IMG/VR virus record: IMGVR_UViG_3300017763_000230
Span: 1-22,120 of that record
Direction: 5' to 3' (one strand)
DNA from: a virus
Length of the DNA stretch: 22,120 nucleotides
Both the position numbers and the translations under genes were made by a program. Positions within the stretch are counted from its first letter, which is position 1; each line of letters starts with the position of its first letter. The notes below the pieces were generated by a model. The model ran no database searches, was not told the origin of the DNA, and saw nothing but the letters and a program-made list of their open reading frames with translations. Below, one piece after another: positions 1-19,707 of the stretch.

Positions 1-140
1 AAGTAAGGATATAATGAAGATCATACGCATAACTGGCGAACAAGTTGAACTAGCAATGGCTGCCTAAGAGGTACCCTAGCTAAACGGCATTTAACAGGGC
101 AAGTCGTATAAGCCCGGTGGTGGTGGATCCCTTTAGGGGT
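1..140 (+). ncRNA. ssrA: tmRNA (ssrA), partial: tag-coding and downstream part, possibly permuted two-piece form
   Basis: Transfer-messenger RNA rescues stalled ribosomes and adds a proteolysis tag. Seen: this stretch is clearly richer in G+C than the genes around it and uses codons (CGC, GGC, CTA, GCC) that the phage genes avoid. From GGC at 35-37 it reads G-E-Q-V-E-L-A-M-A-A and stops at TAA 65-67. Known Bacteroidota tags begin GE and end ALAA or AMAA. The bases before the resume codon are U30-A31-A32, placing an A at -4 as in E. coli tmRNA. After the stop, 73-76 plus 80-84 can pair with 132-140 (nine pairs, a 3-base bulge), enclosing a GGGC/GCCC hairpin at 97-115. Odd: no GGTTCGAATCC-like T arm and no CCA end follow before the next promoter and gene, unlike one-piece tmRNA. 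A permuted gene, with the acceptor piece upstream, would explain this. The 5' part lies outside the window. The alternative is the end of an ordinary ORF (in-frame ATG at 14). Confidence 0.68.
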
Positions 141-142
141 AA

Positions 143-178
143 TTTGGATTTTTTATATATTAGTATTATATTTATACT
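143..178 (+). promoter_or_regulatory. Promoter-like element before the 140 aa gene
   Basis: TTTG (143-146, within TTTGGATT) is followed after 20 bases by TATATTTA (167-174), which continues as TATTTATACT (169-178). This fits the Bacteroidota -33/-7 form TTTG-N20-TAnnTTTG except for the final G. Exactly the same two elements and spacing occur at 19713-19744. The predicted transcription start would fall about at the ATG at 181, giving a leaderless or very short-leader mRNA. Function is inferred from position and recurrence. Confidence 0.45.
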
Positions 179-180
179 AT

Positions 181-603
181 ATGATAAATCTAGACAATAT
201 TTTTCACTTATTTAGCCCTAATGATGATTTAGAGGGAATTGATAATGGTAAAGTACATATTGATTTTAAAAATACACCTATCTACTGGGTTGGGATGTAT
301 AAAAAATTAATATTAAATCATATAAATTTTAATAAAAAAATAATGAAATTTTTTCAAAAATCTAATAAAGATTTAGATTTAAATGATGTTAAAGAAGCTG
401 GGGAGTTTGTTACATATAATAAAGCATGGTCTTATATAAAAAAAATTGATTTAAATAATAAAGATCATAAAAAGGGAATAAACACTTATGCAGATGAATA
501 TTTAGATACTTCATTAAAATTAGGAATTAATTTTTTTATAGAAACCGAAGAATATGAAAAATGTGCACATCTTCAAAAAATTCTAAATTATCTTTCAGAA
601 TAA
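181..603 (+). CDS. Small conserved-type phage protein with UVR-like C-terminal helix (140 aa)
   Basis: I do not recognise a specific family for the whole protein. It is 140 aa, soluble, rich in Lys, Asn and Asp, with no signal peptide or membrane segment. The last ~25 residues (about 114-138, ending E-E-Y-E-K-C-A-H-L-Q-K-I-L) resemble the UVR helix found in UvrB/UvrC and in many small phage proteins, where an acidic E-x-Y-E is followed by Cys-Ala and a Leu-rich helix; this suggests a protein-protein contact role. The start at 181 directly follows a promoter-like box, with no room for a ribosome-binding site; no earlier in-frame start exists. It stands between the tmRNA and a short gene cluster. 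A function cannot be assigned. Confidence 0.75.
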   Translation: MINLDNIFHLFSPNDDLEGIDNGKVHIDFKNTPIYWVGMYKKLILNHINFNKKIMKFFQKSNKDLDLNDVKEAGEFVTYNKAWSYIKKIDLNNKDHKKGINTYADEYLDTSLKLGINFFIETEEYEKCAHLQKILNYLSE

Positions 604-635
604 CTTGGATTCCTCAAATATTTTATATATCTTGG
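604..635 (+). promoter_or_regulatory. Bacteroidota-type promoter candidate in the 604-727 gap
   Basis: CTTG (604-607, within CTTGGATT) is followed after exactly 20 bases by TATCTTGG (628-635), matching five of six fixed positions of TAnnTTTG. The spacing is identical to the elements at 143-174 and 19713-19744, and the -33 side shares TTGGATT with both. The predicted start near 642 would give a leader of roughly 85 bases for the 60 aa gene at 728. Unlike the others it lacks the TATTTATA box, so it may be an earlier-class promoter. Confidence 0.4.
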
Positions 636-727
636 ATATAAATTAATATTAGGTATTAAGGTACATATGTTAATATAAAGGATAAATAATAAAGAGATTA
701 AATATAGAATATAATAAATAAACAATT

Positions 728-910
728 ATGAGAAATAAAAACACATGCATAAGGTTGGTGGAAAAACTAGATGGAGATTTTAAAACATTATTATTCATTT
801 TAAGTAGACCTAATGCCGATATAAAAGATTTTAGGGATGTAATTAAAAGATTACAAGACACTTCATCAAATTTAATGAGATTTATTGAACGTGAAGAGGA
901 AACACTATAA
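728..910 (+). CDS. Small hypothetical protein (60 aa)
   Basis: A 60-residue, mostly helical, charged protein beginning M-R-N-K-N-T and ending E-R-E-E-E-T-L. It contains a central hydrophobic stretch (F-K-T-L-L-F-I-L-S-R-P, residues ~18-28) too short and too punctuated for a membrane anchor, followed by an amphipathic acidic/basic helix. I do not recognise a function. It is probably real because it fits the strand and spacing of its neighbours, its start follows an A/T-rich leader, and the HD-domain gene begins 16 bases after its stop. An opposite-strand ORF overlaps it but has no context. It is likely co-transcribed with the genes at 927 and 1696. Confidence 0.6.
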   Translation: MRNKNTCIRLVEKLDGDFKTLLFILSRPNADIKDFRDVIKRLQDTSSNLMRFIEREEETL

Positions 911-926
911 TTAAAAATAAAAGGTT

Positions 927-1694
927 ATGAAATTAACAGCAGAAAAAATACAGTCTAATTGGGAAGAATTTCATTCTAATATAAAAAAATATATTAAGGG
1001 TGATAGACAAACACAATTATTAGCGTTTTATACTAAATTCCAAGAACGTTTAATATTAATGCCAGCAGCACATAAAAAAGAATATCATAATGCTTTTCCA
1101 GGAGGATATATAGACCATGTTAATAGAGTAGTTAGATGTGCTCTTAAACAATATGAATTATGGAAAGAAGAAGGAGCAGATATTAATACTTTTACAATTG
1201 AAGAATTAGTATTTTCTGCTATTAATCATGATTTAGGTAAAATGGGTGATGCAGACCATGAAGCATATATTCCTCAAACTGATAAATGGAGAAAAGATAA
1301 ATTAGGAGAGGATTATATGTTTAATAAAAAATTAGCATTTTCTGCAGTTCCTGATAGATCATTATTTCTTCTCCAACAACATGATATTAAGTATACTTTT
1401 AATGAGATGGTAGCTATCCAAACTCATGATGGATTATACGACTCAGCTAATGATAAATATTTAAAAGGTTATATGCCAGAACAAAAACCAAGAACATCTT
1501 TACCTTTTATATTACATCAAGCAGATATGATGGCAGCTAGAATTGAATTTGAGATAGAGTGGTTACCTAAATTTGAAAATCCCACACCTGTAAAAACTAA
1601 TAATTTCTCAATAAATTCTAATAAAACAACTAAATCTAAAGCCTTAGGTAATCTATCAAGCCCAGGATTAAAAAATATGTTAGATAATTTATAA
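927..1694 (+). CDS. HD-domain metal-dependent phosphohydrolase
   Basis: The 255 aa protein belongs to the HD superfamily, whose members hydrolyse phosphate esters or phosphodiesters using metal ions held by His and Asp. The metal ligands are visible in order: H64 (in G-G-Y-I-D-H), H101-D102 (in N-H-D-L-G-K-M-G-D), further candidates H152 and H167-D168 (T-H-D-G), and D200 (in H-Q-A-D-M-M). All four canonical ligands are present, so it should be active. The C-terminal ~35 residues are Asn/Ser/Lys-rich and probably flexible. Similar proteins occur in T4-like marine phages. The substrate is unknown: nucleotides, (p)ppGpp-like signals or RNA ends are all possible. The start at 927 is the only one here with a purine-rich AAAGG close by. 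The next ATG begins one base after its stop, suggesting an operon with the membrane protein. Confidence 0.88.
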   Translation: MKLTAEKIQSNWEEFHSNIKKYIKGDRQTQLLAFYTKFQERLILMPAAHKKEYHNAFPGGYIDHVNRVVRCALKQYELWKEEGADINTFTIEELVFSAINHDLGKMGDADHEAYIPQTDKWRKDKLGEDYMFNKKLAFSAVPDRSLFLLQQHDIKYTFNEMVAIQTHDGLYDSANDKYLKGYMPEQKPRTSLPFILHQADMMAARIEFEIEWLPKFENPTPVKTNNFSINSNKTTKSKALGNLSSPGLKNMLDNL

Positions 1695-1695
1695 T

Positions 1696-1974
1696 ATGGA
1701 AACAATAATAATATCAATTCTTTCAGCATTAGTAATAGTATTAGGATTTGCAGTTTTTAATTTAATGCAAAAGAATGAACAACAAGAAGACATTTTAGTT
1801 GAATACATGAAATATTTAAATAAGATTTCTAAAGCAATAGAAGTATCAGATGTAAGATTAAAAAAATTAGACGCTCAGGGGAGATTTAAGAGTGATGATG
1901 AAATAGGTTTTTTCTTTAAAACAGTTATGACAATACAGGATTTATTAAATGGATTTAAAATTAAAGATTTATAA
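1696..1974 (+). CDS. Small single-pass membrane protein (92 aa)
   Basis: Residues ~3-23 (T-I-I-I-S-I-L-S-A-L-V-I-V-L-G-F-A-V-F) form one transmembrane helix at the N-terminus, followed by Lys/Asn/Gln residues, so most of the protein is predicted to face the cytoplasm. The rest is a charged helical region, with D-D-E-I-G-F-F-F-K-T-V and I-Q-D-L-L-N-G-F near the C-terminus, a pattern I associate with small proteins of unknown role in marine T4-like phages. There is no cleavage site typical of a signal peptide. It starts one base after the HD-domain gene and lies 10 bases before the sigma factor gene, so it is likely in the same transcript. Function unknown. Confidence 0.72.
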   Translation: METIIISILSALVIVLGFAVFNLMQKNEQQEDILVEYMKYLNKISKAIEVSDVRLKKLDAQGRFKSDDEIGFFFKTVMTIQDLLNGFKIKDL

Positions 1975-1984
1975 CCTATGACAC

Positions 1985-2794
1985 ATGGATAATATAATAA
2001 GAGAAGCTAAGAAAAAAAGACAGAAAAGAAATTATTTTACTCAAGAAACAGAAGATGCTATTGTTGCTTATAATACAAGTAAAGATTCATTATTTAAAAG
2101 TAATATATACTCCAGAGAAATACATTATCCCTTTTATAAGTTAACTGAAAATATAATACACACTTTTAAGTTTTATTATACAGATGGGGTTGAAAATTTA
2201 GAAGATTTACAACATGAGATTATGGTATTTCTTTTAGATAAAATTCATTTGTTTGATCCTAGTAAAGGAGCAAAAGCTTATTCATATTTTGGTACTATTG
2301 TAAAAAGATGGTTAATAGTATATAACCAAAAAAATTATAAGAAAAAAATAGAATCTATTGATATAGGAGATATATCTAAACATCAAAATTTGGATATTGG
2401 AGAAAATTCCTTTTTTATATTAAATACTAAATTAGAACAATCATCACAAAAATTTGTAGAGTTAGATAATAATTTTGGAGATGAGTTATTTAATAAAGGA
2501 TATAAAGAAGGGGATAGATTATCTATTTTTGTTGATTTATATGTAAAACATATGACTACAAATATTTTTGACTATTTTCCTAAGGAATATGATGCTCAAA
2601 TAGCTGATTGTATTTTAGAATTATTTAGAAAAAGAGATGCTATAGATGTTTTTAATAAAAAAGCACTTTATATCTATATAAGAGAAATGATCGATGTAAA
2701 AACTCCTAAAATAACTAAAATAGCTAATAAACTATACAAAGTATTCAAAGAAAAATATATTATATTTTCAGAAAGTGGTTATTTTTCATCTTAA
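1985..2794 (+). CDS. 55: T4 gp55-like sigma factor for late transcription
   Basis: Phage sigma factors of the gp55 family bind host RNA polymerase and direct it to late promoters, switching on virion genes. The 269 aa product has a compact sigma region 2 at about residues 45-120: L-E-D-L-Q-H-E-I-M-V-F-L-L-D-K, then F-D-P-S-K-G-A-K-A-Y-S-Y-F-G-T-I and K-R-W-L-I, the core-binding/-10 recognition helices characteristic of this family. T4 gp55 is shorter (185 aa). The first ~20 residues are very basic. In T4 the gp55 C-terminus carries a hydrophobic clamp-binding motif; here the tail ends S-E-S-G-Y-F-S-S, which has an aromatic pair but is not an obvious match. An ATG at 1978 is rejected because it stops after four codons. 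The gene sits directly before the first late box and the tail genes, consistent with its role. Confidence 0.88.
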   Translation: MDNIIREAKKKRQKRNYFTQETEDAIVAYNTSKDSLFKSNIYSREIHYPFYKLTENIIHTFKFYYTDGVENLEDLQHEIMVFLLDKIHLFDPSKGAKAYSYFGTIVKRWLIVYNQKNYKKKIESIDIGDISKHQNLDIGENSFFILNTKLEQSSQKFVELDNNFGDELFNKGYKEGDRLSIFVDLYVKHMTTNIFDYFPKEYDAQIADCILELFRKRDAIDVFNKKALYIYIREMIDVKTPKITKIANKLYKVFKEKYIIFSESGYFSS

Positions 2795-2808
2795 AAGCTA
2801 AAATTTTT

Positions 2809-2820
2809 TATATTTATAAT
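2809..2820 (+). promoter_or_regulatory. Late promoter box candidate before the first tail block
   Basis: TATATTTATAAT lies 8 bases before the ATG at 2829. The ten-base core TATTTATAAT recurs exactly upstream of the genes at 6372 and 19765. It contains the exact reverse complement of the T4 late box TATAAATA. At the position where the other copies have TTTG (here 2785-2788) the sequence is TTCA, so only the -10-type element is convincing. It is the first such box after the sigma factor gene. Confidence 0.45.
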
Positions 2821-2828
2821 CAAAAATT

Positions 2829-3182
2829 ATGGGACAACTAGATTCAATAGTATTTGGTAATAAAAAATTCTCAGATATTCTACATGAGATATATGAAAAT
2901 CAAACCACTAAAAAACAACAAATTACATCTTTAATAAGTGAGTTAAAACCTTTAATACAAGAAATAGGTGATGCTACCTTAATAGTACCTTTAATAAAAG
3001 AATATTTAGAAATTGGTGTAAAAAATGATGAACAATTAATAAAAATGGCTACTATAATTCAAAGAGCAGTTAATAACACTAATGATGAAGGTGAATTTGG
3101 TATATCAGAAGAAGAAAAAGCTGAATTATTAGCAGAAATGGATAAATTAGAAAGAATTAATAAAGAAAATAAAAATGGCTAG
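2829..3182 (+). CDS. Hypothetical late protein preceding the spike gene (117 aa)
   Basis: A 117 aa, helix-rich protein with no membrane segment. Residues ~30-75 (S-L-I-S-E-L-K-P-L-I ... L-I-V-P-L-I-K-E-Y-L-E-I-G) look like two or three packed amphipathic helices, and the C-terminus is strongly acidic (S-E-E-E-K-A-E-L-L-A-E-M-D-K-L-E). I do not recognise a named family. It is the first gene after a late-type box and its last 8 bases overlap the start of the gp5-like gene, so the two are likely translated together. A chaperone or assembly partner of the spike is a reasonable guess only. Confidence 0.7.
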   Translation: MGQLDSIVFGNKKFSDILHEIYENQTTKKQQITSLISELKPLIQEIGDATLIVPLIKEYLEIGVKNDEQLIKMATIIQRAVNNTNDEGEFGISEEEKAELLAEMDKLERINKENKNG

Positions 3183-4419
3183 AACACCTACGGGGTTAAA
3201 TTCTTTAAAACCTTTAAATTTACAATCTTCAAAAGGACCAGAAATAATACCTGTAAGAGTTAAATTTGTTTCTTTAAATGGAAAAGATTATCCTATTAAT
3301 TGGAAAGAATATGGAGAATATAGTAGTATAGGTGGTATTTTATTTGAAGAACTATCTAACCCATCAGGAAAGTCTTTATCTACTTTAAGCTTTGCTAGTC
3401 CCCTATATTCTAATATAACATTTTTACCCTTAGTAAATGAAATAGTTTATATAATTTCACTACCTAATGCTACTACCCAAACAAATCCATCTACTGGCAA
3501 AGCATATTATTATTTTCAAAGTATTAATATATGGAATAGCATACATCATAATGCTTCTCCAAATTCCCTTGCTACTAAACCCACCCAAGGTCAAAATTAT
3601 GCTAAAACTGAAGCTGGAGTAGAAGTATCATCTGATACTAATATAGAAGATATTAATTTTGGTTTTACTTTTAAAGAAAGAACAGGAATAAGAAATTTAC
3701 AACCTTTTGAAGGAGATGTTTTAATAGAAGGGAGATGGGGTAATACTATAAGATTTGGGAGTACAGTAAATAATTCAACACCTTTTAATCCTTGGTCAGA
3801 TAGTGGAGTAAATGGAGAACCTATTATTATTCTAAAAAATGGACAAACCCAAACACAGGATGATTCTTGGATCCCACAAGTAGAAAATATAAATACAGAT
3901 AAATCTTCATTATATTTAACATCAAATCAACAAATACCTATAGGTGCAGCAAGTACTGATTATAGTTCCTACACACCCGCTTTTGGTGAAATTCCTAGCT
4001 CCCCTAGCTCATATAATGGTTCTCAAGTTATTGTTAATTCAGGTCGTTTATTATTTAATTCTAAAAATGATCATATTTTACTTAGTTCTGCAAGAACAAT
4101 ATCTTTTGGAGCTCAAAAAGGTTTTAATTTTGATACTCCATCTAACTTTGTTGTTAAAGTTGGAACTAAAATAATGTTAGGAGATAAAGAAGAAAGTACT
4201 ACTGAACCTTTAATATTGGGAGATAAATTTTTAGATGATTTTCAAAAATTATTAAATAACGTTGTTTCATTAACGTCAGCTTTAGGAACAGTTGGTACAC
4301 CAGTTCCATATCAACCTAATATAGCAGTTGCACAATCAGCAACTAAAGTAGGATTACAAGCTCAAACTATGTTAACCTCAATTGAAAGTTATAAATCAAA
4401 AACAACAAGAACTTTATAA
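3175..4419 (+). CDS. 5: Baseplate central spike/hub protein, gp5-like, without lysozyme domain
   Basis: In T4, gp5 forms the membrane-piercing spike at the centre of the baseplate. This 414 aa protein has an N-terminal beta-rich part (residues ~25-95) followed by a region with the family-like signature D-V-L-I-E-G-R-W-G-N-T-I-R-F-G-S-T (~181-197), N-P-W-S-D (~205-209), P-I-I-I-L-K-N-G-Q (~216-224) and S-S-L-Y-L-T-S (~244-250), an OB-fold-type pattern of phage spike proteins. The C-terminal third has short beta repeats (I-L-L-S-S-A-R-T-I-S-F-G-A) and then helices ending at T-R-T-L. T4 gp5 is 575 aa with an internal lysozyme domain; I see neither the space nor the motifs for one. The start ATG lies inside the previous gene, and the stop overlaps the next ATG as TAATG. 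The exact orthology to gp5 is less sure than the baseplate role. Confidence 0.72.
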   Translation: MARTPTGLNSLKPLNLQSSKGPEIIPVRVKFVSLNGKDYPINWKEYGEYSSIGGILFEELSNPSGKSLSTLSFASPLYSNITFLPLVNEIVYIISLPNATTQTNPSTGKAYYYFQSINIWNSIHHNASPNSLATKPTQGQNYAKTEAGVEVSSDTNIEDINFGFTFKERTGIRNLQPFEGDVLIEGRWGNTIRFGSTVNNSTPFNPWSDSGVNGEPIIILKNGQTQTQDDSWIPQVENINTDKSSLYLTSNQQIPIGAASTDYSSYTPAFGEIPSSPSSYNGSQVIVNSGRLLFNSKNDHILLSSARTISFGAQKGFNFDTPSNFVVKVGTKIMLGDKEESTTEPLILGDKFLDDFQKLLNNVVSLTSALGTVGTPVPYQPNIAVAQSATKVGLQAQTMLTSIESYKSKTTRTL

Positions 4420-6326
4420 TGGCTTTAGCAGATTTTATATCAAAAATTGTAACTAGTATAACTAGAGCAACATTTCAGTTTAACAAATCCCTAGATGTAT
4501 TAATTGATAAATTTAAAGAAGGTTGCCCAACAACTGATGAATTAAAAAAATTAATAATTCAAAAAAATGAAATTAATGGTGCTTTAGAACAAATAGAACA
4601 AAAAATAGCTACTTTAAATAAAGTAGCAAAAGGTTCTGAAATAGCAGCTGAAGCTTTAAATACTGGAAAAACTATAATAAAGCAAATCCCAGCACCCTCA
4701 TCTGTTCCTCCTGGTGTAGGTTTACCTTTAAATGTATTTAATAATTTTTCTGATGCTTTAGATAATTTAGGGACTTTAATAGATAAAGAAAAAGCATCCT
4801 TAGATTCAATTCCTGAAGCTTTAGATATAATTAAAAAAGATGTTGGAGAAGTAATTACTAAATTAAATGAATTTGATGTTGTTTTAAATGATTGTATAGA
4901 AAAAGACCCTAATATTACAGCTGAAGATTTAGAGGCAACAACTGAAAATTTTGTAGGAGTATTAACTAACGAAGCATTAGAAGAAATACTAACAACTCCC
5001 CCAGGATTATTATATGGAGATTATTATTTAAGATTAAATTTTTTATCTACAGATTTTTCATTTGATAAAAAACAAATAATAGCACAAAATAAAGAATCTG
5101 TTATAGATGGAGAATTTTATAATGAAAATGCACTTGTAGAAACATTATTAGGAGATGAATCTTTTTCTTCATCAAATTTAGTTTTAGTTAATGAGATGAA
5201 ATGGTTAATTGATACTAAAGATTTAATATTCCCACCCCCAGAACCAGCAGAAGATCCTTTAAAAGCTATATTTAAAGAAGGACAAATTGTTATATTAATG
5301 TCTATTTATGGTGCTAGTAGAGAAGAAGCTGAAGAATTATATGAATTAGCTTGGGAATTATCACAAGATCAAGGACCTAATAAAGGTTATTATCCTACAT
5401 TAGTTCAGGAAGCATTTGATAATTCAAGAACTGTTTTAGAACAAGCTGTAGCTAATGAAGGATATGAATGGCAACAGGGTGATAGAGTATTAGATTCTAC
5501 TATTAAAAAATTATTTTTAGCAGATTATGCTAAAACTGTAAGTGAAGAACTATTAAATGGGGCTATATCACAAATAAGAGCACAAGCTCGATCTTTATTA
5601 AATGCCGCAGATAATATAGGAAAAAGTTATAATTCAAGTGAAAAAAGATGGCAAAATGACGGAGATTTTGCTAACAATTCAAATAATAAATTATACCCAT
5701 ATTCAGAAAGATTAGCAGCAACAGCTGAAAATTTATTTAATGATAATACTATAGGAAGTGAATTTATAAGTTTAAGACCAGAAATGGCTAAAAGAAAACC
5801 TCTTATGCAAGCTATTTTTGAAGTAGCAAATTATTTATTTTTATCAGATAGACCTTATAGTTTTAATGATCCTTTAAAAGAATATTTTAATTCTAAGGGA
5901 ATAGGTTATAATCAACCTATTATTAATGGAATTTATATAAATGGAACATCTACAGAATTAATATCATCTGCTGAATTGGAAGCTATTTATGATGCTGAAA
6001 TTGATATTGTTGAAACTGTAAATTTAAGACCTGATAATTTACTCCCACCTGATTTTAATACTGCTGAAGATGGTTTAACATTTGAACAAAGAAAAGCATA
6101 TGCAAAAACTAAAGTTTTTCTAAAACTTTTAAATACGCTAGGGATAGTATGGTATAATGGAAACGCCCAAATAGCTTCTGAATTACCATTTTGGTATCCT
6201 AGTGGGGGTAATCCAAATTCAAGTACTTATTTTGATTTAAAAGATGCAAATAGAGGTTTAACAATAGCTGATAAGTGGTATTTTGAATTTGGTAGAAATA
6301 GTTTACCTATACCTACTGGATTATAA
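4419..6326 (+). CDS. Large helical virion-associated protein next to the spike (635 aa)
   Basis: I do not recognise a named family. Residues ~20-90 and ~112-165 are long amphipathic helices likely to form coiled coils, separated by a Pro-rich linker (I-P-A-P-S-S-V-P-P-G-V-G-L-P, ~90-103). The middle is acidic and Glu/Leu-rich. The C-terminal ~100 residues are richer in Trp, Tyr and Gly (W-Y-N-G-N-A-Q, P-F-W-Y-P-S-G-G-N-P), suggesting a compact globular end. There is no signal peptide. It overlaps the gp5-like gene by one base (TAATG) and ends the first late block, so a role in the baseplate hub or in coupling spike and tube is likely (inference from context). T4 hub proteins such as gp26-gp29 occupy comparable contexts, but no sequence link is visible. 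Confidence 0.78.
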   Translation: MALADFISKIVTSITRATFQFNKSLDVLIDKFKEGCPTTDELKKLIIQKNEINGALEQIEQKIATLNKVAKGSEIAAEALNTGKTIIKQIPAPSSVPPGVGLPLNVFNNFSDALDNLGTLIDKEKASLDSIPEALDIIKKDVGEVITKLNEFDVVLNDCIEKDPNITAEDLEATTENFVGVLTNEALEEILTTPPGLLYGDYYLRLNFLSTDFSFDKKQIIAQNKESVIDGEFYNENALVETLLGDESFSSSNLVLVNEMKWLIDTKDLIFPPPEPAEDPLKAIFKEGQIVILMSIYGASREEAEELYELAWELSQDQGPNKGYYPTLVQEAFDNSRTVLEQAVANEGYEWQQGDRVLDSTIKKLFLADYAKTVSEELLNGAISQIRAQARSLLNAADNIGKSYNSSEKRWQNDGDFANNSNNKLYPYSERLAATAENLFNDNTIGSEFISLRPEMAKRKPLMQAIFEVANYLFLSDRPYSFNDPLKEYFNSKGIGYNQPIINGIYINGTSTELISSAELEAIYDAEIDIVETVNLRPDNLLPPDFNTAEDGLTFEQRKAYAKTKVFLKLLNTLGIVWYNGNAQIASELPFWYPSGGNPNSSTYFDLKDANRGLTIADKWYFEFGRNSLPIPTGL

Positions 6327-11808: not shown

Positions 11809-14800
11809 ATGGCAATACCAATCTCTTCATCTTTAACACAGCTAAATGCCGAAACCTTTTTTCAAGAAGGATTTGAATTAAGTTTAGATGCTATTGTTCC
11901 ATCAATAGAATTAACAGGATCTTTTACTGAGTTTGAGAGTAAAACTCAATTTTATATATATGATTATACTAAAACTATATTATATACAGATTTAGACTAT
12001 AAAGGTAATGGATCATTTTTACTGCCTGAATTAGGTACTTCTACATCAACATCTTCTACTTCAATTTATAATCAATTTGAATTACACCCAAATGAAGACA
12101 TTTATAATCAAGGGTATTCAAATGGTAAGTTTTATGCTGTTTATAATTTTATAGATTATGAATTAGGATCTGAAGCTTTAGATATAGAAGAAGATGGAAG
12201 TTATGAACAGCATCCCTATTTTATAAAAGATATTTCTGGAGATAGAACAGAATTAAGAATCCAAAATAATTTTTTAACATCTCAACAAATAGAAACTTAT
12301 TATAATAATTTTCAAAATAAATTAAGTGCTAGACAAAATGTTGATGAATTTTATATATCATTTATAGGGAACAGAAATTTTATAGGAATAAATAGTCAAT
12401 TAGAAAAACCTTCAACTGAGGGCTCTTCAGACCCAACTTCTATTTTAATTAAATTATACCAACCCCTCCCTGCAGAATATCAGTTAGAAGAAGAACTTCA
12501 AATAATTACAAAAGTAGGAGAAACTCAGGTTTTTGAAGTAGAATTTAATCCTAATTTAGAATTTATAGATAATTTACTTTCATTAAAGGGTCCTAATTAT
12601 AATATAGATATTAAAGATAAAGTTAATAATTCTACTAATTTTAAATCACTAACAGATTTAGTTAACACAAATAGTTCTCAATCTTATTATCAATTTAATT
12701 CTTTACAAGACCAAAAGGGTGTATTTTTAACTAAAAATTGGGGAGATTGGAGTGAATTTGTAAAATTTTCTTCTGCCGAACAAAGATTAAATAATTTTTA
12801 TGATAAAATGGTTTCAATTGAAGCTTATGAAGCAGAATTATCAAATCTTGAAACCATAACGGGAGCATCAAATACTACTCCAAACTATTCTTCTAGTTAT
12901 AATTCTGTTAGTAATAATATTAATAAAATTATTAGTAAATTTGATAGTTATGAATATTTTTTATATTATGTAACAGGATCTGAATCATGGCCTAAATACT
13001 CATCAACATACCCTTATAAAAACTACTCAGTAACAAGTTCAGCTGTATCAAATTGGTTTGGGAGTACAGATGAAAATAATTTATATTATAATACAGGAAA
13101 AAACCAAATATACTCAGCTTCTAGATATGATGAAAACAATCAAGATTATTTATATTATTTAATTCCTCCATATATTACTGATAATAATAGTAATGATCAA
13201 TATGTTAAGTTTGTAAACATGACAGGTCAAACTTTTGATGAAATGTATCTTTATACTGAAGCTGTCGAACAAGTTAGAAATACAAATTCAGGCTTAACAG
13301 GATCAGTTTTACCTTTAGGTATGGCTGATGATGTAATAGAATCTTTAGGATTTGAAACATATGGTAATGACTTTAATTCTATAGGATTTAATGTTAATGG
13401 GGTAGGAGTATTTCCTGCAACAGGATCAGGTTTAGAATATATTGATCGTTACATAGATATAGCTTCTGGTTCAGTTATAAATTATTATGATCAAGAACAA
13501 TCTACTTTAGGGTATGTTATAGCATTAGCAGATCCTTCTTTTCCTTATCCTTTAGATAATACGGCTCAAGAAATTTATAAAAGAATTTTTCATAATATGG
13601 TTTCTTTAGTAAAAAGAAAAGGAACTGTTACTGGATTAAGACAATTAATTAATATATGGGGAGTTCCTAATACAATGCTTCGTATAAGTGAATTTGGGGG
13701 TAAAAATAAGGATGATAAAAATGATTATGATTTATGGATGAATCGTTATAGTAATGCTTTAACTACTTATGACTATAAAAAAGGAGCATTATCACCTAGT
13801 GGATCAATAAGAATCCCATGGGCACCTTTAACAGGTAATTATTATGAAACAGCAGCTGTTCCTGATATAGCTGTTCCTGATTGCATTCAGTTTAGATTTA
13901 AAGCAGCAGAACCTATAACAGCAACATCAAATTTTTCTCAATCTTTATTAGTAAAAAATTCTACAACTAGTGGAACATATAGCGATTTTGGTATTACATT
14001 ACATTACTCAGGATCACAATCAGGATCATATTCAGGATCTGTTTTACCAACAACTAGCCAATATGGAAGTTTATCTTTTAGAATATCTTCATCATTAGCT
14101 GGTGGGTATAGAGAATCAACTCCTATATCATTACCATTTTTTAATGATGGTTGGTGGTCTGTACAACTACAAAGAAAAACTCACATATCAGCATCAAATC
14201 AAAATGCTACAAATAATCAGTTTGAATTAAAAGTAGCAAATAATATATATGATGGTTATGATGGTAATCAAATAGGATTTCAAGGAGTATCAACACTTAC
14301 AACTATTGGAAATGATGGGGTTAATGAAGCTTGGAATAGATTTGCTAATGATGGAGCTCTTCCTTCAGCAAGAGGTGTTATGTTAGGAGGATATATGTCT
14401 GCAACTGCTGACTATAATAAATTAATAGGACCAACATCAATTGTAGTTGGTAGTACAGCTGGTATAGGTTTAGGTGATTCATTTTCAGGATCATTTCAAG
14501 AATTTAGATATTATAGAAGAGCATTATCATCATCTCAATTTAATGATTATGTAATGAATCCTGAATCCATTCAGGGTCATGAAGATTCAAATACTGGAGA
14601 AGGTAGTTCTTATGATTTATTATCTTTTAGACTACCATTAGGAAATGAATTAGAATATACTGATGTTACGGGTTCTGCAGGGGTTTCTTTAGCTGCAGTT
14701 GAGGATGGAGGTGCTGTAGCTATTTTTAAATTTGGAGGAACACCTGATATAATTAACTTTCCATCATTTGGGGGAAGTGCTTTAGGATCATTACATCCTT

Positions 14801-17800
14801 CTTTAGTTAATAAAAAAGGAACATTATATACTTCATCATTTCTTTACCCACTTGCACCTATTTCAAATATTTATAATACTGGAAGTGGTTATACTATTGT
14901 TTACGCAGGAAGTGATGGTACATATACAACATCATTAACATCATCATACTTAGAACCTAATACCCAAATAAACTACATGGACCAGCCATCAGCTGGTATT
15001 AGGAATAGAATAAAAAATAAAATTCAAGTAATTGATAAAAATGAGTATAGTACTGTTTTATCACCTTTTAGAAGTATACAACAAGAATTTGAACAAAGTG
15101 CTAGTTATACAGAAGATTTAAATTCATTAGAAGTTGGATTTTCATTTCAAAATGAAATAAATGATGATATAATTGCAACGTTTGGGCATGGAGTAGTTTC
15201 TGATGCAATAGCAGACCCAAGATTTATATCAGAAAGCTCAGATAGATATCCTGAATTAACTCGTATAGCAAATGATTACTTTAAAAAATATCAAGGTATT
15301 ACTATTAATGATCCTAGATATACAGGATTACCTACTATAATAGAAAAAGAATATGATTATAATAGATTAATAAAATTTTATGAAACCTCACTATTTAAGG
15401 CAATTAAAAATTATGTTCCTGCTCGTACTAGTTTAAGTACAGGAATTATCGTAAAACAACATCTATTAGAACGAAATAAAACCGATGCAGTGATTGGTAT
15501 GCATACACAAACTCCTGTAGCTAAGACGCCTGAAACCGGCTCTAATAGCTTTGGAGCTACTACTCAAACCGGATTTAATAGTATAATGTCGCAACAAAAT
15601 CTTCTAATTACTTCAAGTATAGGAATGCATTCCTTAACAGGAAGTGCAGGAGGAAGTGTTAATAAATATAATACACCAACTTCATCTTATACAGCATTTA
15701 CTCAATCATATAATGTTTTAGATCCTTTTACTGGGGACACAGTTACAGTAAATACTCAAGAAGAATTTTATGATGGTGAATTTAGTGGCAGTAATTTTGA
15801 AGTTATTCCCTCTCAATATAATCCCTATAGAATATTCGCTGATGGAAATAATAAAAACCCAGATGCTAATCTAGCATATACACCACCCTCATTAAATTTA
15901 GCATTACCTGGTCCTTATAATACAACAAGATTTCCTACAGTACCTGGAAGTAATGGTCCAGCAACTGCAGTACCTATTAGAGCAACAGCTAGTTTAGTTT
16001 ATCCTTCGGGATCTAAAGTTGGAGCAGCTAGTAGTGATTCATTATTATTTGTTAATAATGGTTTTTCTGGTACTACTTCAAATAAAACTATAAAAATAAA
16101 TGATGGTTTTGGGGTTACAAGATACTATGTAGCTGTACAATATAATGATTCTATGCAAACATCACTACCATCACCTGCTAATGGTAAGTATAAATTTTCA
16201 ACAGCAACAAATGCTTTAAGTGCTTATTCTACTGTAACAGCAATAGGTCCTAACCCATCTGGTACAGGTACTGAAACTATTACATTAACAAATGGAACTA
16301 AAACAATAGAAGCTTCTGTTAATTGGGCTGGTGGAGTTTGGGGGAATGCAACAGTAACAAACCCAGATCCTGGTAATCAAAATCTTACTGCTTGGCCTGC
16401 AGTAAATGATAATTTTTCTGGGGCAAATTCTGGGGGAGATCAAGTTAATTTTCAAGTAACAGCAGCTTCAGTAACAAACGGTTTATTACAAGTACAATGT
16501 ATATCCGGAACTTCCGATTCAACTATGGCTTCCTCTTTTTTCACTGCAGTAAACTCAGCAGGGGGTCATAATGGATCTATTACTCCACAATTACTTACTA
16601 ATGGCTCAGATATATATGTTCGACTTTTAGCTGATAATGTAGGAGCTGCTGGAAATACAAATATTACATATGAAAATAATTTTGCTAGTAATGCTGGTGG
16701 TGGTGCGGGAATAATTTTAGCTTCAAGATCAACAGGAGCTTCTCCCCAATACTTAGCTCCTACTATATTTCAAGGAGGAGTAGATACACCTTCAACTACA
16801 ACAACTTATTTACAAAATTCAATTACAGATCTTATACCTGGAGTACAATATAGCATTCAATATACTATATCCGGTATAGGTAATGATGGTCAGGGAGGAT
16901 CAAATTATGACATAGGATTAAGCTCCTTATCTACACCTGGAGGAACAGCTAATGGTGTAGGATCAAGTATTAGATCAACCACAAATGGAACTTTTACGGG
17001 AACATGGACTCAAGCTGTGGGACAAACAACAGCAATGTTTTTTGCTGCTATTGGAACTTATGGAACATTATCAAATATACTTATAACTGCTCCACCTGAG
17101 ATTTTAGGACCTAAACATTTCTTTAAAAGAGATGCTTTTACAATATTACCAACAGCAAGTCAATTATTTCAAGCTTCCCCATATAATCCACTTCTTAATA
17201 ATGTAAGTGGTAGTAGAAAAAACTCATTTTTATTTGATCAGGATTTTGACCCTGTATCACCTGGTTTTGAACTAAAAGAAGGAATTCCAAATGACTATGC
17301 CTTAACTATTTCAGCTTCACAACTAGGATGGGAAGGAACGGCTACTGATGAAGATTTATTAGAATACTCAGAGGTACCTGATAGTAATTATACTACAAAA
17401 GCAATAATAAATCCAAGATATGTAGGATGTTTATTAGAAAGTGCAGATTATAATTTTTACACAGGAATACCTTCTGAAAGTTTAGCAATTGGAAGATCTA
17501 CAGATACAGGAATTACAGGATTAGCAAATCCTCCATTTTTACTAACTCAAAATAAAGTTCAATACATTAATGGTGAAACTGGTAGTTGGACGGGAGACAC
17601 TTCCTACGGTAAAAATGCAGTAATTGATAGAAATCCAATTAATATTGCTCACTTTAAATCCTCTTTAGAAAGTAAAGAATATTTTGGTACTACTACTTTT
17701 AATATTGATCAATTAATTCAAATTCCTTTTGAAGAAATATTAAATGAACAATCTCCAATTATCACTTCATCTTTAATAAATGGTAGTAATGAAAATTTAG

Positions 17801-19707
17801 TAGCAATGTCTTCTACTTTTATGCCTGGAAGGGAAGCAACAATTGTTTACAACCAATCAAATAAAACCTTTAATAATGTAGGGGGTACTATACTTAGTTA
17901 TACAAATTTAGGTGTAGGAGCTAGAGAAATTAATGCTGGGGGAATTAATTTTATAGCATACCATTCTAATCAAGTAAATTTAGATAATATATCACCTATT
18001 CAATATTATAATTTACCAATTTGGTACGATTATGATGTTGCTAAAGATTTTAGCAATTTAAGTAATCTTGTAACAGTTAATAATCCAAATATAGAAATTA
18101 CTCCTGCGTCTCAATCACTTCTTTTAAGTGCTTCTTATATGGGATTTGGAGTTAATAATACTGCATATACAATATCTCAATCATCTGTACTTAATGCTTC
18201 TAATATTAATAAGGTTTACTCATCAGGTAGTATTATTTATTCTCCTTCTACACAAGAATTTTATAGTGAATCCCCACAACCAATTTTATTATATACATCG
18301 AGTTTATTAGATGAAAATGGAAAATCACAAGGTATATTAAATTTAAGAGGTCCTAACCCAGGACAATTACCTAGTTCTGTTTTCAATGATAACACTAATA
18401 CCTCATTAATAAACACCTTTTCTATAAATGGACCTTCATTAATGATGTTTAATTCCTGGAATAAATTAATACGTTTAGGAGATATATATCCTTTAGGTTC
18501 ATCAACTACAACTAGTAGTGTATCTATTAGTAGAATGGGAGCTTCTGGTAATAGGGGAATGTATATAAATCCTATAATAGCAAGTAGTGGAAATATATTA
18601 TTGTCTTTTGGTCCTTTTTCCACACCTCGAAATGGTTCCTTACCTTTATTAAATTTAAATGAAAAAGAAAACCCAAATAATTATTATAGATGGAATATAT
18701 CGGGGTCATTATTACCTGAATATAGAGTAACAAATAATCAAATTTTGGATATTGAAGTAGGAGATGAAATAAGGGTCTCATATTCATATTTTGTAGATCC
18801 CGCTAATCCTAGTATTTTAGGAAAACAAGATCAGGATTTTACAGTTTTAGGATATAATATGATGCCTCCTAATATATGGACTACAAATTCAAATTTTAAA
18901 GCTAGTGCTACTGTTAAGTTTGAGATACAATCTACTATAGTTGAATCATATAATACTGGTATAACACCTACAAGAGTTACATCACAAGGACCTCTTCCAT
19001 CAGATGGTTATTTTAGCTTTACAGAATTATGGAAAAGATATAGATCAGCTTTTAATAATAATGTAACCTTTAACTTTCAATCTTATGATGAAAATGAAGA
19101 TTATATGTATACTAGTGGTTCCCTTACAGCACTTAATACTCATTCTGTTGTAGATGGAACTGGAATAATTGGAATAACAGCATCATTGTTTAATAGAACT
19201 AATGTAACTAATGTAAACCCCGCTGATGTTTGTTGGAACATGTCTACTAATTACATATTAAATTTAAGTTCTAGTATAGAGACTAATGAACTATCATCTA
19301 ATTTCACTGGATCTGTACTATATAATTCATGTTCACTATCACCTATGTTAATTTCAAACCAGGACCAAACCTCTAAAACAGCATTCGCCCCTCTAGATCC
19401 TGGATTTTTATTTGATAGACTAGTAGTAACTCCTAACCCAAATGATTTGGAAAATAAAATACCAGAAGGAAAAATATATGCTATGACTTTAAGGAAAAGA
19501 GTAGAAGCAGATGATAGAGTTATATTAAATGCAAACCAACCATCAGGATCAGCAGGTGCTTTAACGTTATCTGGTGATGGTTATTTAATACCAAATGATC
19601 TAACTGAAGTGCAACAAAGAAATGTTCAAAAAATAATTAATAAATTAAAATCTGAAAATGTATTTACACAAGACAGTCCTGACAATTTAGGAGGTTCGAA
19701 TGCTTAA
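11809..19707 (+). CDS. Giant baseplate wedge protein, gp7-like, with LamG-like and inserted adhesin-like domains (2632 aa)
   Basis: In T4, gp7 (1032 aa) starts wedge assembly and links the baseplate periphery to fibres. This 2632 aa protein carries segments I recognise from large gp7-type proteins of T4-like marine phages: V-K-R-K-G-T-V-T-G-L-R-Q-L-I-N-I-W-G at ~601-618 with I-S-E-F-G-G-K after it, and K-N-Y-V-P-A-R-T-S-L-S-T-G-I-I-V-K-Q-H-L at ~1200-1220. Between them, ~664-918 looks like a LamG/concanavalin-type beta sandwich (W-W-S-V-Q-L-Q-R then G-S-F-Q-E-F-R-Y-Y-R-R-A-L-S). Residues ~1380-1768 read differently: Gly/Thr/Asn-rich beta repeats with A-V-N-S-A and D-N-V-G-A-A-G-N-T-N-I-T, a pattern of phage adhesin domains. 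The C-terminal ~860 residues are beta-rich. One intact frame, no visible frameshift. The start at 11809 follows an A-rich leader. Baseplate role is fairly sure; gp7 equivalence is less so. Confidence 0.82.
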   Translation: MAIPISSSLTQLNAETFFQEGFELSLDAIVPSIELTGSFTEFESKTQFYIYDYTKTILYTDLDYKGNGSFLLPELGTSTSTSSTSIYNQFELHPNEDIYNQGYSNGKFYAVYNFIDYELGSEALDIEEDGSYEQHPYFIKDISGDRTELRIQNNFLTSQQIETYYNNFQNKLSARQNVDEFYISFIGNRNFIGINSQLEKPSTEGSSDPTSILIKLYQPLPAEYQLEEELQIITKVGETQVFEVEFNPNLEFIDNLLSLKGPNYNIDIKDKVNNSTNFKSLTDLVNTNSSQSYYQFNSLQDQKGVFLTKNWGDWSEFVKFSSAEQRLNNFYDKMVSIEAYEAELSNLETITGASNTTPNYSSSYNSVSNNINKIISKFDSYEYFLYYVTGSESWPKYSSTYPYKNYSVTSSAVSNWFGSTDENNLYYNTGKNQIYSASRYDENNQDYLYYLIPPYITDNNSNDQYVKFVNMTGQTFDEMYLYTEAVEQVRNTNSGLTGSVLPLGMADDVIESLGFETYGNDFNSIGFNVNGVGVFPATGSGLEYIDRYIDIASGSVINYYDQEQSTLGYVIALADPSFPYPLDNTAQEIYKRIFHNMVSLVKRKGTVTGLRQLINIWGVPNTMLRISEFGGKNKDDKNDYDLWMNRYSNALTTYDYKKGALSPSGSIRIPWAPLTGNYYETAAVPDIAVPDCIQFRFKAAEPITATSNFSQSLLVKNSTTSGTYSDFGITLHYSGSQSGSYSGSVLPTTSQYGSLSFRISSSLAGGYRESTPISLPFFNDGWWSVQLQRKTHISASNQNATNNQFELKVANNIYDGYDGNQIGFQGVSTLTTIGNDGVNEAWNRFANDGALPSARGVMLGGYMSATADYNKLIGPTSIVVGSTAGIGLGDSFSGSFQEFRYYRRALSSSQFNDYVMNPESIQGHEDSNTGEGSSYDLLSFRLPLGNELEYTDVTGSAGVSLAAVEDGGAVAIFKFGGTPDIINFPSFGGSALGSLHPSLVNKKGTLYTSSFLYPLAPISNIYNTGSGYTIVYAGSDGTYTTSLTSSYLEPNTQINYMDQPSAGIRNRIKNKIQVIDKNEYSTVLSPFRSIQQEFEQSASYTEDLNSLEVGFSFQNEINDDIIATFGHGVVSDAIADPRFISESSDRYPELTRIANDYFKKYQGITINDPRYTGLPTIIEKEYDYNRLIKFYETSLFKAIKNYVPARTSLSTGIIVKQHLLERNKTDAVIGMHTQTPVAKTPETGSNSFGATTQTGFNSIMSQQNLLITSSIGMHSLTGSAGGSVNKYNTPTSSYTAFTQSYNVLDPFTGDTVTVNTQEEFYDGEFSGSNFEVIPSQYNPYRIFADGNNKNPDANLAYTPPSLNLALPGPYNTTRFPTVPGSNGPATAVPIRATASLVYPSGSKVGAASSDSLLFVNNGFSGTTSNKTIKINDGFGVTRYYVAVQYNDSMQTSLPSPANGKYKFSTATNALSAYSTVTAIGPNPSGTGTETITLTNGTKTIEASVNWAGGVWGNATVTNPDPGNQNLTAWPAVNDNFSGANSGGDQVNFQVTAASVTNGLLQVQCISGTSDSTMASSFFTAVNSAGGHNGSITPQLLTNGSDIYVRLLADNVGAAGNTNITYENNFASNAGGGAGIILASRSTGASPQYLAPTIFQGGVDTPSTTTTYLQNSITDLIPGVQYSIQYTISGIGNDGQGGSNYDIGLSSLSTPGGTANGVGSSIRSTTNGTFTGTWTQAVGQTTAMFFAAIGTYGTLSNILITAPPEILGPKHFFKRDAFTILPTASQLFQASPYNPLLNNVSGSRKNSFLFDQDFDPVSPGFELKEGIPNDYALTISASQLGWEGTATDEDLLEYSEVPDSNYTTKAIINPRYVGCLLESADYNFYTGIPSESLAIGRSTDTGITGLANPPFLLTQNKVQYINGETGSWTGDTSYGKNAVIDRNPINIAHFKSSLESKEYFGTTTFNIDQLIQIPFEEILNEQSPIITSSLINGSNENLVAMSSTFMPGREATIVYNQSNKTFNNVGGTILSYTNLGVGAREINAGGINFIAYHSNQVNLDNISPIQYYNLPIWYDYDVAKDFSNLSNLVTVNNPNIEITPASQSLLLSASYMGFGVNNTAYTISQSSVLNASNINKVYSSGSIIYSPSTQEFYSESPQPILLYTSSLLDENGKSQGILNLRGPNPGQLPSSVFNDNTNTSLINTFSINGPSLMMFNSWNKLIRLGDIYPLGSSTTTSSVSISRMGASGNRGMYINPIIASSGNILLSFGPFSTPRNGSLPLLNLNEKENPNNYYRWNISGSLLPEYRVTNNQILDIEVGDEIRVSYSYFVDPANPSILGKQDQDFTVLGYNMMPPNIWTTNSNFKASATVKFEIQSTIVESYNTGITPTRVTSQGPLPSDGYFSFTELWKRYRSAFNNNVTFNFQSYDENEDYMYTSGSLTALNTHSVVDGTGIIGITASLFNRTNVTNVNPADVCWNMSTNYILNLSSSIETNELSSNFTGSVLYNSCSLSPMLISNQDQTSKTAFAPLDPGFLFDRLVVTPNPNDLENKIPEGKIYAMTLRKRVEADDRVILNANQPSGSAGALTLSGDGYLIPNDLTEVQQRNVQKIINKLKSENVFTQDSPDNLGGSNA
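14009..14040 (+). repeat. Short tandem repeat encoding Ser-Gly-Ser units
   Basis: The unit CAGGATCAxAxT occurs at 14009-14020 and 14021-14032 and begins again as CAGGATCT at 14033-14040, giving S-G-S-Q-S-G-S-Y-S-G-S. It sits in a surface-type loop of the LamG-like domain. TCAGGATCA also recurs in other structural genes here, so part of the similarity reflects favoured codons for S-G-S. Confidence 0.6.

Follow-up and report, generated by a model that had tools for sequence, protein, structure and literature searches.

Start of the window

The window analyzed here is the whole 22,120-nt sequence of its source record, a linear fragment, so that window position 1 is a contig end. Its first ~120 nt are, close to certainly, the coding piece of a circularly permuted (two-piece) tmRNA. 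The region contains the following features, the pairing partners being located in an overlapping contig, L004 (see below).

1 to 3, + strand: last three bases (AAG) of the P2 helix C strand in the coding piece, the others falling before the contig end, from pairing in L004 and covariation
8 to 15, + strand: coding-piece strand of P2 helix B (GATATAAT), pairing with GTTATATT of the acceptor piece in L004
19 to 23, + strand: coding-piece strand of P2 helix A (GATCA), pairing with the 5'-terminal TGATC of the acceptor piece
23 to 34, + strand: 12-nt linker from the P2 core to the resume codon, without PK1, from parsed relatives and the Rfam alignment
35 to 67, + strand: tag reading frame GEQVELAMAA and stop, read directly and called by ARAGORN in the near-identical copies L002 to L005
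61 to 73, + strand: P5 hairpin around the stop codon (61 to 64 with 70 to 73), from covariation
84 to 115, + strand: H-type pseudoknot after the tag (stem 1, 84 to 88 with 103 to 107; stem 2, 97 to 100 with 112 to 115), from covariation
127 to 154, + strand: terminator-like hairpin (127 to 131 with 136 to 140) and T-run after the RNA, read directly
167 to 176, + strand: TATATTTATA box, candidate phage promoter of the next gene, from motif positions and its conservation before tmRNA genes
181 to 603, + strand: ORF for 140 amino acids, the downstream neighbor of the tmRNA and the query used for finding relatives by homologue search

The first-pass annotation had read a GEQVELAMAA-stop frame with U-A-A at -5 to -3, and both are present: GGC GAA CAA GTT GAA CTA GCA ATG GCT GCC TAA occupies positions 35 to 67, and T-A-A precedes the resume codon. 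It had also noted the lack of a T arm and CCA 3' of the tag, where the hairpin with its T-run, the TATATTTATA box, and the ORF starting at 181 are found instead. The interval that it proposed for the RNA, 1 to 140, holds at its start and not at its end, as the structured RNA stops at ~116 to 120 and positions 127 to 154 form the terminator-like element. A different hairpin with a T-run takes the corresponding position after the RNA in L026, L029, and L177.

Neither ARAGORN nor Rfam found a tmRNA in the window alone, because the record begins within the gene. Minimum free energy folding of positions 1 to 160 alone was uninformative (z, 0.45), as this is half of an RNA that contains a pseudoknot. 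When phage DNA was searched with the start of the window, no relevant match emerged. The 140-aa ORF has at least 80 relatives among viral contigs and none in INPHARED, Pfam, or PHROG.

In an alignment of relatives, the TATATTTATA box also directly precedes the acceptor piece of the tmRNA. The motif ATATTTATA occurs in the + strand at positions 168, 2810, 6351, and 19738, each time 10 to 30 nt 5' of a gene start, and is absent from the - strand; the excess of sites (five, versus about 1.9 expected) is statistically weak. The 269-aa protein encoded at positions 1985 to 2794 shows weak similarity to Sigma70 region 2 and is a possible phage late sigma factor, which could read the TATATTTATA boxes.

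Complete permuted gene in overlapping contigs

The whole tmRNA gene is contained in L004, part of a 53-kb contig. L004 matches window positions 1 to 5600 with 100% identity, and L091, another part of that contig, matches the window over 10,072 nt with 99.99% identity. The sequence of the missing half of the tmRNA is therefore directly available, and the copies in L002, L003, and L005, which come from other metagenomes, agree with it. The contigs that overlap the window and hold the complete gene are 99.9% to 100% identical to the window. Window position 1 corresponds to L004 position 4821, and ARAGORN predicted a permuted tmRNA at L004 4683 to 4978. The gene order there is the acceptor piece (GATC... 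GGACGTGGGTTCGATTCCCACCATCTCCA), a 22-nt intervening segment, the 5' acceptor strand GGGGATG..., and the tag. The acceptor piece comprises a T arm and an acceptor strand with the G3-U70 pair. Together with the T arm, this pair was seen as GGGG.TG / CA.CTCC in the ARAGORN calls for L002 to L019, which are independent of our pattern scan; it is present by construction in 42 pattern-derived sequences. The DNA after A73 reads CTA, CAA, or occasionally CCA, so that CCA is mostly not encoded.

Thus, the acceptor piece, intervening segment, and 5' acceptor strand predicted to lie upstream of the window were all found in L004 and its relatives, and the window lacks the acceptor piece only through the contig end. 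The search proposed for extended sequence gave the ARAGORN class "Permuted" and RF04321 (tmRNA_permuted) scores of 66 to 70 bits in five of five relatives, above the cut-off of 47. Two simpler explanations were rejected. An ordinary ORF does not run into the stop at 65 to 67, as about 95 nt lie between the end of the upstream gene in L004 and the 5' acceptor strand. Nor is this a one-piece tmRNA cut by the contig end, since a T arm is absent downstream and the acceptor piece lies upstream.

The permuted layout was matched in 109 viral contigs by a pattern scan for an acceptor piece, an intervening segment, a 5' acceptor, and a GGN-GA tag start, a pattern that favors such tags. GEQVEMAMAA, GEQVELAMAA, and close variants accounted for most of the tags, with tag frame and stop present, and most of these contigs also bear window-type genes. 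The tag frame in the window is not a chance occurrence, because L004 holds the whole gene, the layout recurs in the 109 contigs, and the helices covary.

Helices, missing PK1, and the post-tag pseudoknot

Forty-two distinct sequences were parsed, and pairing was measured in 39 of them, across which all of the helices covary. The parse was anchored on motifs and guided in part by the expected helices, which biases the pairing percentages toward the model; double changes and controls with slid strands are the safer structural evidence. In L004, ATAAAG (4818 to 4823) pairs with CTTTTT of the acceptor piece to form P2 helix C, which was 97% paired, with double changes at four of six pairs. P2 helix B was 99% paired (double changes at five of eight pairs). 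P2 helix A was 98% paired, with four of five pairs changed on both sides, and its variants include GACC/GGTC, GAAC/GTTC, GAATC/GATTC, and GAGTC/GACTC. P5 was 96% paired (double changes at one of four pairs; UGCC/GGUA, UGCU/AGCA, and UGCG/CGCA). The phage tmRNA has one pseudoknot following the tag, both stems of which covary: stem 1 was 100% paired, with double changes at two of five pairs, and stem 2 was 95% paired, with double changes at five of five. The altered post-tag regions of L125, L134, and L165 were excluded from the pseudoknot counts. When one strand was moved by 1 to 2 nt, pairing fell to 1% to 73% (pseudoknot, 1% to 52%).

Two-piece coding pieces typically contain both PK1 and PK2 (PMC3985003), and PK1 is modeled in all three known permuted lineages. 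No PK1 was found between P2 and the tag in the phage RNA. Since P2 consumes the upstream strand and leaves only 11 to 15 nt before the resume codon in 41 parsed sequences, there is no room for it, and its stem positions are gapped in the Rfam alignments. The absence of PK1 is thus well supported.

Host of the phage

In its tail module, the nearest cultured phage is Flavobacterium phage immuto, to which 13 of 18 window proteins correspond in synteny with 27% to 63% identity; immuto likewise supplies the best match for the phosphohydrolase and for the structural protein of 357 aa. Microcystis phage Mel-JY01, the second nearest, has this tail module in common with the window as well (25% to 44% identity), which would allow for a cyanobacterial host. 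We regard such a host as very improbable, because immuto is closer than Mel-JY01 for every shared protein and because Shine-Dalgarno-like 4-mers precede 9 of 27 genes in Mel-JY01 versus 0 of 18 in the window and 1 of 34 in immuto. Mel-JY01 is also without a tmRNA, as is immuto. These comparisons indicate that the window most likely belongs to a marine, T4-like phage of Bacteroidota (Flavobacteriales-type) hosts. Within the tail region, a single ORF (11809 to 19707) encodes 2,632 amino acids, whereas its counterpart in immuto is far shorter (3,798-nt CDS, about 1,265 aa).

tmRNA genes in Bacteroidota chromosomes and a prophage

That Bacteroidota chromosomes carry one-piece tmRNAs, as the first-pass annotation had assumed, agrees with our survey: the standard tmRNA model scored above the cut-off in 189 of 198 Bacteroidota genomes, and the permuted model did so in only 1 of 395, the sole match being a prophage (L216). 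The chromosome with L216, which the data suggest to be of the order Flavobacteriales, also has a normal standard tmRNA. L216 is surrounded by tRNAs and by genes of phage replication (DNA polymerase A and a DnaB-like helicase). An integrase gene (PF00589) lies close to the border, past which there are bacterial genes, among them one for a glycerol-phosphate-oxidase-like protein. The prophage tmRNA lacks PK1 and has the tag GKVIQMNNAPVRLAA, which is followed by a simple hairpin and not by a pseudoknot. Its match to a model of the phage coding piece was weak (E, about 0.01), no better than those of the standard tmRNAs of its order.

Related tmRNAs in gut Crassvirales

A distant DNA search with L216 led to the Crassvirales genomes cr53_1, cr60_1, cr56_1, cr113_1, and cr109_1. 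The cr60_1 gene (NC_055891) resembles the window type in being permuted (also according to ARAGORN), in lacking PK1, and in sharing the AUAACUGGC resume context and the AACGGC..GUCGU pseudoknot, but it has the tag GNTSYVMDYTRLAA and a longer intervening segment and is annotated merely as SsrA. The crAss copies have the AGATAACUGGC resume context and the AACGGC..GUCGU pseudoknot in common, and cr53_1 scored 50.3 bits with RF04321, above the cut-off. Automatic annotation mostly misses crAss-type tmRNAs, ARAGORN having detected that of cr60_1 and none of the others among six loci.

In cr56_1, cr113_1, and MT835588, about 600 nt separate the two tmRNA pieces. An ORF annotated as an endonuclease lies on the opposite strand within the intervening segment of cr56_1 (L352, 553 to 1128) and in the corresponding place in cr113_1 (L353); the product in L352 has 191 amino acids and is HNH-like by eye, with no Pfam match. 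Upstream of the crAss-phage tmRNAs there are also RAGATH-20 (L350, 863 to 964; L352, 216 to 313; L353, 200 to 300; L354, 651 to 752) and RAGATH-9 (L355, 342 to 521) elements.

Relationship to known tmRNA lineages

Previous descriptions of split tmRNA concern three lineages of bacteria and the phages of these lineages. The phage RNA resembles these permuted forms (RF04321; alpha RF01849, beta RF01850, and cyano RF01851) in the order of acceptor piece, intervening segment, and coding piece and in the tRNA-like domain with G3-U70, P2, the tag, and the post-tag pseudoknot. It differs from them in the absence of PK1, in an intervening segment of only 16 to 22 nt, in its Flavobacteriales-type D-loop and tag, and in being phage-borne, no housekeeping copy occurring in the sampled Bacteroidota. 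The standard Bacteroidota tmRNA (RF00023), found also in Cellulophaga phage Calle_1, shares the GE-start and A[LM]AA-end tags and, in the Flavobacteriales-type order, the CTGG[AT]TTTGAC D-loop, but it is a one-piece RNA with PK1 and further pseudoknots, whereas the phage form is permuted.

The D-loop TTGAC was present in 54 of 54 phage tmRNAs and in 19 of 25 standard tmRNAs of the Flavobacteriales-type order, versus 3 of 30 other sampled Bacteroidota standard tmRNAs and 1 of 27 alphaproteobacterial permuted ones. Because the Bacteroidota-wide D-loops are mostly TCGAC (27 of 30), the lineage argument rests on the Flavobacteriales-type order, in which the tags are GE..YALAA; both the D-loop and the tag are short. 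A model of the phage coding piece, built on sequence only and with a near-identical copy of the window in its training set, matched the window at E = 2e-23. The same model matched four crAss-type loci via the post-tag pseudoknot (E, 1e-5 to 6e-5) and several Flavobacteriales-type standard tmRNAs in the tRNA-like part and tag (E, 0.003 to 0.08), but none of 21 alphaproteobacterial loci at E ≤ 10. This favors a Bacteroidota-type origin of the phage tmRNA, in line with the link first proposed from the tag, to which the synteny with immuto, the lack of Shine-Dalgarno sites, the D-loop, the prophage, and the crAss-like copies also point.

Alternatively, an already permuted tmRNA could have been acquired from Alphaproteobacteria or Cyanobacteria, as in pelagiphages and Melnitz, with its tag then drifting to a Bacteroidota look. 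Both groups abound in the same waters, and two-piece tmRNAs are known from their phages (PMC9004378). Moreover, RF04321, which was built from those lineages, recognizes the phage RNA (62 to 71 bits in ten large phage contigs). However, none of the subfamily cut-offs was reached (best scores, 49 of 70 bits for the cyanobacterial and 40.5 of 84 for the beta model, these two groups being compared through Rfam models only; alpha was not the best match). The missing PK1, the uniform TTGAC D-loop versus the AGGATCGAC type of Alphaproteobacteria, and the coding-piece matches to crAss phages and Flavobacteriales-type standard tmRNAs also speak against such an acquisition, and we consider it improbable.

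By D-loop, tag type, and model similarity, the distinctness of the phage RNA from the alphaproteobacterial, betaproteobacterial, and cyanobacterial permuted lineages is well supported, and it appears to represent a fourth, Bacteroidota-phage lineage. A separate permutation event behind this lineage is likely, though not proven. On balance, we lean slightly toward the fuller reading, in which a fourth lineage, permuted independently, is restricted to Bacteroidota mobile elements (marine immuto-like myophages, a prophage of the Flavobacteriales type, and gut Crassvirales) and works without PK1. The permutation would have affected a one-piece gene of the host type, perhaps while this was in a phage, and the two-piece form would coexist with the host one-piece form in infected cells.

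Two-piece phage tmRNAs in general are already known. They were reported for OM43 phage Melnitz and, in a 2022 count, made up 53 of 133 distinct phage tmRNAs, 50 of the 53 being from marine or aquatic phages (PMC9004378). Like the window phage, Melnitz and the pelagiphages are marine myophages with a permuted tmRNA, but that of Melnitz is of the alphaproteobacterial type and tied to a glutamine riboswitch (PMC9004378); no Rfam riboswitch reached the cut-off in the window. The 2025 tmRNA database has three main clades with permuted genes and 79 phage sequences (PMC11915505). In the main texts searched, neither a permuted lineage from Bacteroidota phages nor a permuted phage tmRNA without PK1 was described, and the newness of both is accordingly provisional.

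Proposed function

A function of the phage tmRNA can be inferred from its conservation. In the reading that we consider very probable, a marine Bacteroidota phage carries its own permuted ssrA, whose RNA would be processed and charged by the host and would rescue ribosomes during infection. Transcription would probably start at the TATATTTATA box directly 5' of the acceptor piece. The intervening segment of 16 to 22 nt may then be excised by RNase P and RNase Z of the host, so that the acceptor and coding pieces stay together through the acceptor stem and a P2 helix of three parts. CCA addition and charging with alanine, for which the G3-U70 pair is present, would be left to host enzymes, and host SmpB and EF-Tu would deliver the RNA to ribosomes stalled on broken mRNAs. 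The GEQVE[LM]AMAA tag added there would target the peptide to host proteases, and the presumed benefit to the phage is ribosome rescue while it infects.

It seems unlikely to us that the RNA is a decoy, or a partial tmRNA, which sequesters SmpB or ribosomes of the host and does not complete trans-translation. Such a role has been proposed for the RNA of mycobacteriophage DS6A, which consists of a tRNA-like domain only; an RNA of this kind inhibits tmRNA (PMC4131195, PMC11915505). A decoy role would fit the lack of PK1 and of a phage SmpB (no gene in 21 phage records, several of them fragments; controls positive). A decoy would, however, have no need of the tag frame, stop, P5, and resume-codon context, all of which are kept in dozens of diverged phages, or of the protease-type AMAA end that the tags retain.

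If permuted tmRNAs of this type are confined to phages of Bacteroidota, hosts with one-piece genes, they would constitute an independent case of the origin of a permuted RNA gene, possibly inside a virus. Because dozens of diverged phages have naturally lost PK1, the purpose of this pseudoknot can be tested directly, and the Crassvirales copies connect ribosome rescue encoded by phages with viruses that rank among the most abundant of the human gut.

Occurrence at the locus and in cellular contigs

Among 49 relatives with sufficient upstream sequence, the window's own locus holds a tmRNA in 20, a tRNA in 8, and neither in 21; the tmRNA is therefore an accessory gene. The site is empty in L028. 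In L020, L021, L022, and L048, a tRNA-Gln(ttg) lies directly upstream of the homologue of the ORF at 181, where relatives have the tmRNA.

One scan of cellular genome contigs for a source of the tag returned four matches. Three were rejected: the tmRNAs of L192 and L194 (MAG loci) are one-piece or unclear, and the tag of L193 (a Pelagibacter contig) differs. The fourth, L195, has a permuted tmRNA with the tag GEQVEMAMAA at 4220 to 4511 in a contig binned as a Nitrosopelagicus (archaeal) MAG. This is probably a misbinned phage contig, a point of relevance to reports of archaeal tmRNAs.
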